Positions 38,426 through 40,996 of a DNA stretch of 64,000 nucleotides are shown one piece after another. This stretch comes from Hydrogenimonas cancrithermarum (GTDB lineage Bacteria > Campylobacterota > Campylobacteria > Campylobacterales > Hydrogenimonadaceae). The first letter of the stretch is position 1. Each line of letters opens with the position of its first letter. Below the pieces are notes generated by a model. The model saw nothing but the letters and a program-made list of their open reading frames with translations, was not told the origin of the DNA and did no database searches. Location of the stretch: contig NZ_AP027370.1 of assembly GCF_030296055.1 (NCBI RefSeq), positions 1,724,501-1,788,500 of the forward strand. Reading direction: 5' to 3'. The position numbers were made by a program, and so were the translations under genes.

Positions 38426-38514
38426 GGCGAGCTCCGCTCGCCTACTACTCACTACTCACTACTCACTACTCACTACTCACTACTCACTACTCACTACTCA
38501 CTACTCACTACTCA
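38426..38514 (-). repeat. Heptamer array plus hairpin after der
   Basis: Ten exact CTACTCA units (plus strand 38445-38514). The unit next to der contains its stop TAG (38508-38510) and encodes its last two residues. At the far end is a perfect hairpin GGCGAGC / TCC / GCTCGCC (38426-38442). Further left, 38308-38425 is a non-coding remnant with another hairpin (GCGGGC / AAA / GCCTGC) and a direct repeat CTTGAC; nothing else is recognised in it. Confidence 0.95.
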
Positions 38515-39899
38515 CTCTCTTCTTCCCTCTCCCCGCGCCGTTTGGGTATGAGGATGACCGGCGTGCCTTCGAGGTCGAAGTTTTCTCTGAGTTGGTTCGT
38601 CAGGTAGCGGATGTAGCTGAAGTGGATTCCCCTGGGGCGGTTGGAGATGAGGGCGATTTTCGGCGGTTTGATGGCGTACTGCGACGCGAAAAGGATGTTG
38701 ACGGGTTTGCCCTTGTGGCTTGGAATATGGTGTCTGATCGTCGCCTGCTTGATGACCTCGTTGAGTTCGCGCGTCGGGATGTGGCGGGTGTAGTTTTCAA
38801 ACACTTTCAAAATCATGTCGTTGATTTTGTGGATCCGCTTTTTCGATTTGGCCGAAACGGTGATGACGGGTGCCCAGCTCAGGAATTTGAAGCGGTAGCG
38901 CAGCTCGTCGACGATTTCTTCATAACTCCCCAACGCTTCATCCCACTTGTTGAGAACGATGATGCATCCGAGCTTGTACTCGTCCACCAGCCCCGCGATC
39001 TTCTCGTCCAGCTCGCTGAGCGGTGCACTCGCATCGAGGACGAGCAGGGCGATGTCGGCGCGTTCGAGCATCTGCCGCGTGCGTCCGAGGGCGTAACGCT
39101 CGATCCCCTGGATCTTTCCGCGGCGTCTGATACCTGCCGTATCGACGAAGGTGACCGTTTTGTCGCCCAGCGTCATCTTCTCGTCGACAGGGTCGATCGT
39201 CGTGCCGGCTACGTCGCTGACGACGGCACGCTCCTCGCCCAGCAGGGCATTGAGCAGCGAGCTTTTGCCGACATTGGTGCGTCCGATGATCGCGACGCCT
39301 ATTTCGCTGAGATCCTCCTCTTCCTGCAAGGTTCCCGTCTCGTCGAACTGTGCAATGAGGTTCTCGAGGGCATCCGCTTCGTCCGGCACGAGATCCAGGA
39401 GGGCCGCTTCGGGTTCGTCGAGATGGTTTTTGACCCACTCGATAAGCTGACCGACGCGGCGGTTGTGCGATACGGAGATGGCGAAAAGGTTGTTGGCACC
39501 GAACTCACCGAACTCCCATGCACGCTCTTCCTCTTTGTCGTTGTCGATCTTGTTGACGACCAGTGCGATCGGTTTGCCAAGCCGCTGAAGCCGGTAGAAG
39601 AGCTCCTTGTCCCGATCGTCCGGCAACGCTTTGCCGTCGACCATGTAAAGAATGATGTCGGCCGCTTTCGCCGCTTCGATCGCTTTGTTCCTGACACGAC
39701 GGAAGAGTTCGCTGCTATCGTCGATTCCTCCGGTATCCAGAAGCTCCGCCTCTTTTCCGTCGAAGTCGATTATCTCTTTTTTTACGTCCCGTGTCGTCCC
39801 CGCCATATCGGAAGTGATGGCGATGCGCCGCCGTGCAAAACGGTTGAACAGGGAACTTTTTCCTACATTGGGCTGACCCAGTATGGCTATTTTTTTCAT
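38508..39899 (-). CDS. der: Ribosome assembly GTPase Der (EngA)
   Basis: A 463-residue double GTPase. The first G domain has GQPNVGKSSLFNR (G1) and NKID (G4); the second has GRTNVGKSSLLNALLG and NKWD. A C-terminal KH-like domain follows (about 350-455). It is needed for 50S subunit maturation. The start MKKIAILGQPNVGKS is standard. Order der, then EamA and kdsA on the other side, matches C. jejuni. The last residues (SE) and stop are read from a heptamer repeat, so the original C-terminus may have been altered. Confidence 0.97.
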   Translation of the reverse strand: MKKIAILGQPNVGKSSLFNRFARRRIAITSDMAGTTRDVKKEIIDFDGKEAELLDTGGIDDSSELFRRVRNKAIEAAKAADIILYMVDGKALPDDRDKELFYRLQRLGKPIALVVNKIDNDKEEERAWEFGEFGANNLFAISVSHNRRVGQLIEWVKNHLDEPEAALLDLVPDEADALENLIAQFDETGTLQEEEDLSEIGVAIIGRTNVGKSSLLNALLGEERAVVSDVAGTTIDPVDEKMTLGDKTVTFVDTAGIRRRGKIQGIERYALGRTRQMLERADIALLVLDASAPLSELDEKIAGLVDEYKLGCIIVLNKWDEALGSYEEIVDELRYRFKFLSWAPVITVSAKSKKRIHKINDMILKVFENYTRHIPTRELNEVIKQATIRHHIPSHKGKPVNILFASQYAIKPPKIALISNRPRGIHFSYIRYLTNQLRENFDLEGTPVILIPKRRGEREEESE

Positions 39900-39923
39900 C
39901 TCTCTCTTTAATACACGGTAATT

Positions 39924-40198
39924 TTACTGACGTTACGCACCATATGTTACCATCTGTCGAACGAGAACAGATGCAATGCGAGGCGGAAAGCTTCGGGCGT
40001 AGCCGAAGCTACGTTCGAAATTTTCCAACGAAGTCAGTGTGTCTGTTCTCGTTCGACCCCGCAGGGGCGGCATCATCGCCATACGATTGCCGCGTTACGA
40101 CGGTATCGGTGTAGCTTCGGCTACACCTCACCACCGTGCCTTGCACTTATATGACGCTAAAGCCGCAGATGGTGACATATGGTGCGTAACGTCAGTAA
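39924..40198. mobile_element. 275-bp inverted-repeat element (MITE-like or structured RNA)
   Basis: Terminal inverted repeats of 33 bp (39924-39956 and 40166-40198) differ at one position. Inside is a second perfect 15-bp inverted pair (39957-39971 and 40042-40056). Local hairpins follow: AGCTTCGG / GCGTAG / CCGAAGCT (39989-40010), CCCC / GCA / GGGG (40057-40067), and an 8-bp stem with a TTCG loop (40108-40127). No ORF of note is inside. TTTAATAC occurs just outside both ends (39907-39914 and 40199 onward), a possible target duplication. The nested cloverleaf is typical of a non-autonomous transposable element, although a structured non-coding RNA is possible. Confidence 0.8.
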
Positions 40199-40249
40199 TT
40201 TAATACTATTTTATCGAAAATATGATTAAATTGTCGAAAGGATGCAATT

Positions 40250-40996
40250 ATGAAAAAAGCAGTGGTACTGTTGTTGATTTTTATCGGGACGATCTATGCG
40301 GAGTCGATGCATGCGACCTATAAAGTGGAGTATGGGATTTTCGGAAAAATGGGAGTCTCCGATGCCTATCTCACGAAAGAGAATGGACGCTATAAAATAA
40401 AGATGGTCGCCAAAGCGACCGGTTTGGCGAAAGTTCTCAGCGGCGGCCGTGTCGAGATATATGAAAGCGAAGGGGTGGTTTTCAACGGGCGCCTCATTCC
40501 GGAAGTTTTCAGAAAAGATATCAAACGTTCGGGAAAAAGGCGTGTGAAAATCTATCGATTCGATCATGGGTACCAGCGCGTCACCTATCGTGAAAAGAAG
40601 TATCGTGACGGAAAGCTCGAAAGCGAATCGAACGATACGCTTCCCTACTACGCGAACGACGACATCCTCTCTCTTTACTTCAACACACCGATGATCATCG
40701 GAGACTGTACCAAACCGTTCGACAGTTTTCTCAAAGCCGTCGGTGCCGAAAAGAAGACGGGAAAGGTCAGGATAGAGACGATTACGGGAAAGCAGAAAGA
40801 GAAGATGAAAGCGTCGCTTGGCGAAGCGTCCTGCTATCTGAAAGTGACGGTCTATCAGAAACTTTTCGGTTCCAAAGGCGGTGAGCTCTACCTCTCCCTG
40901 CGCTCCGACAATGTCGTGAAAAAAGCGCTTCTCAAAGATGTGGTCATGTTTGGCGACATACGGGGCAAACTCATACATTTCGAAAGCAAAAAGTGA
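40250..40996 (+). CDS. DUF3108 periplasmic protein
   Basis: A 248-residue protein with a signal peptide (MKKAVVLLLIFIGTIYA) and a DUF3108 beta-rich body starting HATYKVEYGIFGKMGVSDAYL. It ends with DVVMFGDIRGKL. The ribosome binding site is AAAGGA. Members are exported and of unknown function, possibly envelope-lipid related. It is the first gene after the inverted-repeat element and probably has its own promoter (AATATGATTAAAT region near 40215). Confidence 0.83.
   Translation: MKKAVVLLLIFIGTIYAESMHATYKVEYGIFGKMGVSDAYLTKENGRYKIKMVAKATGLAKVLSGGRVEIYESEGVVFNGRLIPEVFRKDIKRSGKRRVKIYRFDHGYQRVTYREKKYRDGKLESESNDTLPYYANDDILSLYFNTPMIIGDCTKPFDSFLKAVGAEKKTGKVRIETITGKQKEKMKASLGEASCYLKVTVYQKLFGSKGGELYLSLRSDNVVKKALLKDVVMFGDIRGKLIHFESKK

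Follow-up and report, generated by a model that had tools for sequence, protein, structure and literature searches.

A mobile cloverleaf element beside der in Hydrogenimonas cancrithermarum has a folded core found with unrelated transposon ends in Campylobacterota

Our analysis showed that the 271-bp feature between der and a DUF3108 protein gene in Hydrogenimonas cancrithermarum is a mobile element, a MITE, and that the same folded core occurs with several unrelated termini, and with target duplications of different lengths, across Campylobacterota. As a likely explanation we propose a non-autonomous DNA transposon that is moved in trans by its outer ends and whose core is kept for its single-strand fold. 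Positions are those of the window, the whole 64,000-nt stretch of H. cancrithermarum DNA that was analysed.

Results

Boundaries and insertion site

The element occupies positions 39926–40196 (no strand assigned), boundaries that agree with those of other copies and have 5-bp duplications outside them. It lies between two divergent genes, der (EngA GTPase; 38508–39899, minus strand; an open reading frame with a GQPNVGKS motif), which starts 26 bp away from it, and the DUF3108 protein gene (40250–40996, plus strand; PF11306, 44.8 bits against a cut-off of 26). The original prediction had drawn a 275-bp element from 33-nt terminal arms with one mismatch. These arms are present (39924–39956 and 40166–40198, 97% complementary) and the inverted repeat stands, but the mobile unit, ACTGACG...CGTCAGT, is the shorter 271-bp one, since other copies end at ACTG...CAGT and the outer T/A of the 33-nt repeat is thus flanking sequence. 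The terminal repeats proper, at 39926–39955 (plus strand) and 40167–40196 (minus strand), form the closing stem (helix 1, with double changes in 17 of 30 pairs), and their outer 14 bp are conserved; the outermost part of the left repeat, ACTGACGTTACGCAC, is a putative transposase site. As predicted, the element has no coding capacity, with no open reading frame of 90 aa or more inside it.

At all 12 loci in relatives that were found via the DUF3108 gene, the spacer between this gene and der is short and lacks the element (for example CTTTGATTCACAATAATTTAATACGATTTTATCG at locus L017). The empty spacer of one relative reads CAATAATTTAATACGATTTTATCG, and the occupied home site has the order CGGTAATTT-T-(element)-AATTTAATACTATTTTATCG; comparison of empty and occupied sites, drawing on the 12 relatives, therefore gives a 5-bp target duplication, AATTT, at 39920–39924 on the left and 40197–40201 on the right (neither with a strand), plus one extra T at 39925. 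The pair of TTTAATAC sequences outside the ends, earlier taken as a possible target duplication, had to be given up in that role: the left TTTAATAC corresponds to TTTGATTC in the relatives’ empty site, and the right one is ancestral.

Dispersed copies and target duplications

A search for further copies found dispersed ones in the home genome as well as in relatives. The home genome has a second full copy (C1:1092718–1092988, 90% identity), directly downstream of an mnmG-like gene identified from its translation, and at least one truncated copy; further copies are scattered in other Hydrogenimonas species and in other families, relatives having up to a dozen of near-constant length. Absence from the 12 relatives, the second home copy and the scattered copies elsewhere together identify the feature as a mobile element. 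When we considered 70 elements with ACTGA...TCAGT ends, comprising the long cloverleaf and shorter types, 28 were flanked by a perfect 5-bp duplication, compared with 1.1% in a control with mismatched flanks, and almost none by a perfect one of 4 or 6 bp. The original reading as a MITE is thus upheld: copies are dispersed, both 5-bp target duplications and empty sites were observed, and full-length insertion sequences (IS) of related bacteria have ends that are similar (see below). The element also has terminal inverted repeats, is shorter than about 500 bp and has no transposase gene.

The home element had no match in plasmids or phages, and an element of genome G256 matched one Sulfurovum plasmid. 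A pattern for the module described below had five matches in viral contigs, and the stretches examined look like chance matches without a cloverleaf. A shorter element type of 119–136 bp, seen at L118, L119 and L129 (G007), L169 and L175 (G005) and L171–L174 (G043), has the same ACTGA...TTACGCA ends without the cloverleaf module, around a conserved hairpin-rich interior of its own (CTCGAAATC..GATTTCG, CTTTAGGGGGNTGNAGGG).

A cloverleaf fold with strong covariation

Folded as RNA, the feature reaches −158 kcal/mol, compared with −84.3 ± 4.5 kcal/mol for 200 shuffled sequences (z = −16.5), none of which did as well. The cross-shaped fold proposed from the letters alone was borne out: the ends pair into the closing stem, followed by arm 1 (39956–40057, plus strand; helices 2–4 of the covariation count), a CCC-GCA-GGG mini-hairpin (40058–40066, plus strand) and arm 2 (40067–40166, minus strand by its module reading; helices 6–9). 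The inner pair of arms is also present, at about 39956–39978 and 40035–40057, and is perfect in its outer part. On the other hand, the TTCG loop, once thought to be of importance, is not conserved, its two middle bases varying freely among copies.

Covariance analysis of the homologues showed very strong covariation. In an alignment of 25 long copies, drawn from three families, pairing is kept in 96% of cells, and compensated double changes occur at 56 of the 96 pairs. The alignment holds 328 double-change cells, against 89 ± 9 in shuffles and 30–54 when the partner is slid by 1–3 columns; the fold was derived from this same alignment and is therefore favoured over the slid versions, the margin being large nonetheless. 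The fold belongs to the mobile element itself. Of the alternative first considered, a structured RNA, the covariation is retained, while the single copy and conserved position that would have favoured it are not what we found, the element being missing from the same spacer in 12 relatives; the MITE and structured-RNA readings are compatible, and each is partly supported.

Two inverted copies of one module

Each two-arm element consists of two inverted copies of a structured module of about 74 nt around the CCC..GGG mini-hairpin, giving the plan end repeat, sense module, mini-hairpin, antisense module, end repeat. In the home element model R1 places the sense module at 39970–40043 (plus strand; 81 bits, E 6e-18 in the window) and the antisense copy at 40080–40152 (minus strand; 62 bits, E 4e-13), both modules being part of the model’s own training set. 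A module runs from an outer stem through the loop CAAGGC, an inner stem, a second loop, an apical TAGCC-NN-AGCTA hairpin and the other side of the inner stem to the loop AACGNAG. The covariance model of the module has matches in 30 of 249 Campylobacterota genomes and in 15 of 55 genera. All 31 elements in which two modules were found have them in sense-then-antisense order, so that the first module along either strand, in the 5’ to 3’ direction, is a sense one; a simple pattern for the CCC..GGG motif, which the home element shares with other two-module elements, detects it in 28 of them, and the other three carry shorter forms.

Across 99 distinct modules we counted 576 double-change cells against 222 ± 17, with conserved loop bases; because this alignment was made by fitting to the model, its counts are biased in favour of the structure, a bias from which alignment A1 is free. 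Beside the apical hairpin (columns 32 and 63 of alignment A3) a C.A mismatch recurs, alternating with G-C, which may represent a functional non-canonical pair.

The fold favours one strand of each arm

Where pairs are predominantly Watson-Crick, G.U cells outnumber A.C cells on the module-sense strand by 110 to 73, 42 of the latter coming from the one pair with the recurrent C.A (110 versus 31 if that pair is left out), although the copies are related and these counts are not independent events. On the top strand of the element the excess is seen in arm 1 (35 G.U, 12 A.C) and is reversed in arm 2 (7 and 20), the pattern that reading each arm in its own sense would give. The G.U excess of the module-sense strand disfavours a cruciform-only reading, which is strand-symmetric.

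The same excess, together with the strong covariation, would suit an element that is carried for its RNA, for example a leader controlling der or a general small RNA, with mobility as a secondary matter. The site between divergent genes, perhaps within the der leader, fits this too: if the ancestral sequence to the right of the insertion drives der, the der mRNA would carry the element in its leader. However, the copies are dispersed, 12 relatives have an empty der site, a sense reading of both arms needs opposite strands, we found no clear promoter or terminator, and the home element has no match in Rfam 15 (other members gave only sub-threshold microRNA models). We regard a primarily functional RNA as quite improbable.

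One core, several unrelated ends

The elements that contain modules are cloverleaves of about 260–276 bp or, in some cases, one-arm elements of about 160–170 bp, and they have at least seven unrelated termini: ACTGAYnTTACGCA, GGGCACCTCTAA, TAGACTTCTTGCATAA, TAGAACCCATCTCAAAAATCC, ATTACCGCACC, AAGTAATGAGGCATAAA, ATACCATCGGTAACTAA, and others. One genome (G049) has at least four of these terminal types, and the home genome has three more cloverleaf elements, with TAGAACCC ends (L004, L009 and L319). The duplications differ as well: those of GGGCAC-end elements are 4 bp long (13 of 23, control 5.7%), while GACTTC- and GAACCC-end elements are mostly bounded by TA, for which the flank test reads duplication and conserved end alike, and which is probably a target duplication. 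Direct comparison shows that ends and cores part company. L311 (GGGCA ends) and L180 (GACTTC ends) have cores that are 87% identical and outer bases that are unrelated, while L311 and L308 have common ends (79–83%) and cores at 69%.

Bacterial MITEs are IS-derived and form stable stem loops in transcripts (PMC10969869, PMC2229807), and such stable-hairpin MITEs are common. The feature could be an ordinary one of this sort, its fold a by-product of long inverted repeats, its pairing kept passively by fold-back (quasi-palindrome) template switching and its interior without function; fold-back copying would also explain the matched ends and the exchange of ends. This is hard to square with the constancy of loops CAAGGC and AACGNAG and of the apical TAGCC/AGCTA, which remain the same, unpaired or mispaired, in elements with unrelated ends although the stems differ, with an architecture and length that are stable near 265–271 bp, or with likely parent IS that lack the module. 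We think it unlikely.

Two further arrangements were seen. In L111 (G002; 296–732) a GGGCACC-end cloverleaf is nested within a shorter ACTGA-end element. L193, L296 and L315 (G160) are one-arm versions, 158 bp between GGGCAC ends and flanked by TTAA, in which a very long hairpin carries a single module at its apex.

Candidate transposases

With a G043 fragment as its starting point, a protein search identified IS4-family IS of Campylobacterota (NF049925, 282 bits), which are 1.48–1.57 kb long, encode a transposase and end in ACTCAACTTTCGCAC or ACTTAACTTTCGCAC, with perfect 5-bp duplications in several cases. Their duplication length equals that of the home element, and their ends match it at 11 of 15 bases; with the ACTGACC variant the match is 12 of 15. 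In G279, an IS5-family IS has ends, TAGACTTCTTTCATAACC, that are identical to those of L312 and one base off those of L313. Neither type of IS contained the module when searched with filters off. The likeness of the ends suggests that different DDE transposases are the probable movers of cloverleaf elements.

Similar ends thus exist on the IS4-family IS of related bacteria, but an exact partner was not found, and no transposase with such ends turned up when the home genome and the genus were searched with PF01609 and NF049925. In G000, G007, G005, G016 and G043, paired ACTGA ends, considered as an autonomous partner, proved to be MITEs or long spans arising by chance in which no transposase could be recognised, and a 1.7-kb end pair in G007 (2215144–2216835) holds ordinary genes between MITEs. 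Two longer elements, L281 (G270; 362 bp) and L289 (G411; 367–492 bp), have the IS4-family ends ACTCAACTTTCGCAC or ACTTAACTTTCGCAC without the module and are likely further non-autonomous derivatives.

G256 is an orphan burst of cloverleaf copies (L188, L206–L234), with about 20 near-identical cloverleaves of 265–266 bp and at least 19 near-identical modules in elements with matching ends; in this genome we found neither a PF01609 transposase nor an end pair at IS-like spacing. The mover there and in the home genome may be of a class outside PF01609/NF049925-type searches, or may have been lost. Such a burst, and structured modules in inverted pairs generally, would be accommodated by a REPIN-like system, in which the module hairpins would be bound by single-strand (HUH/Y1) transposases and the two inverted modules would be the counterpart of the paired inverted REPs in a REPIN. 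Duplication length, however, follows end type, which is a mark of DDE transposition, and in two cases the ends match a DDE IS. We consider a REPIN-like system very improbable.

Discussion

Our preferred explanation remains a MITE moved in trans by its ends and retaining its core for the fold. A DDE transposase encoded elsewhere would bind only the outermost 15–17 bp or so and move the element in trans; in the case of ACTGA...TTACGCA ends the enzyme would be of the IS4 family and make 5-bp duplications. The core would be kept by selection on a folded single strand, RNA or single-stranded DNA, and with inverted modules whichever strand is single-stranded or transcribed would present one sense module first. 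Fold-back copying between the end repeats would help to keep them matched, and would let both ends change together when the element comes under another transposase. What counts against this explanation is that neither the home genome nor its genus yielded a transposase with such ends, that the IS4-family ends agree at only 11 of 15 bases, and that fold-back correction by itself could yield much of the covariation without selection. More tentatively, the core could possibly be a functional structured nucleic-acid module with its own lineage, a selfish cassette that persists by swapping only its terminal ~17 bp, thereby passing between transposase families (IS4, IS5 and others), and whose inverted design provides a working module on either strand.

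Several known repeats have features in common with the cloverleaf. The bcr1 element of the Bacillus cereus group is likewise a repeat that moves, has a duplication of 5 bp and conserves a fold like that of an RNA, but it is about 155 bp long and occurs in one host group, and we know of no module common to different end types in it. Correia/NEMIS, ERIC and QMITE2 are short, non-coding and dispersed MITEs with terminal inverted repeats, target duplications and predicted stable hairpin transcripts (PMC10969869, PMC2229807); what sets the cloverleaf apart from them is a two-arm core whose conserved module is common to unrelated ends and different duplications. The CIR elements of Caulobacter also have two arms from inverted repeats and a conserved secondary structure, but by description the arms are joined by a linker without end-to-end pairing, whereas the ends of the cloverleaf close its fold, and the modules differ (PMC2229807). 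REPINs and BIMEs similarly place palindromic units in alternating orientation, though as far as the account cited goes these units are 20–40 bp long and tied to RAYT enzymes (PMC2817692), whereas the cloverleaf modules are ~74 nt long and belong to a transposon flanked by target duplications. In the open-licence papers searched we found no description of the cloverleaf group, which may be described elsewhere; it is apparently a large and undescribed group in Campylobacterota.

By the tests available the element is a MITE, and its novelty lies in the core shared across end types. In the usual account a MITE arises by internal deletion of one IS and has an interior without function; here the interior is conserved and the ends change. 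This makes it testable whether a folded core benefits a MITE and how a non-autonomous element switches transposase. The work also supplies a covariance model and a genome set for repeat annotation in Campylobacterota, and the presumed der leader, which carries the element in one genome and lacks it in relatives, offers a presence/absence case for effects on a housekeeping gene.
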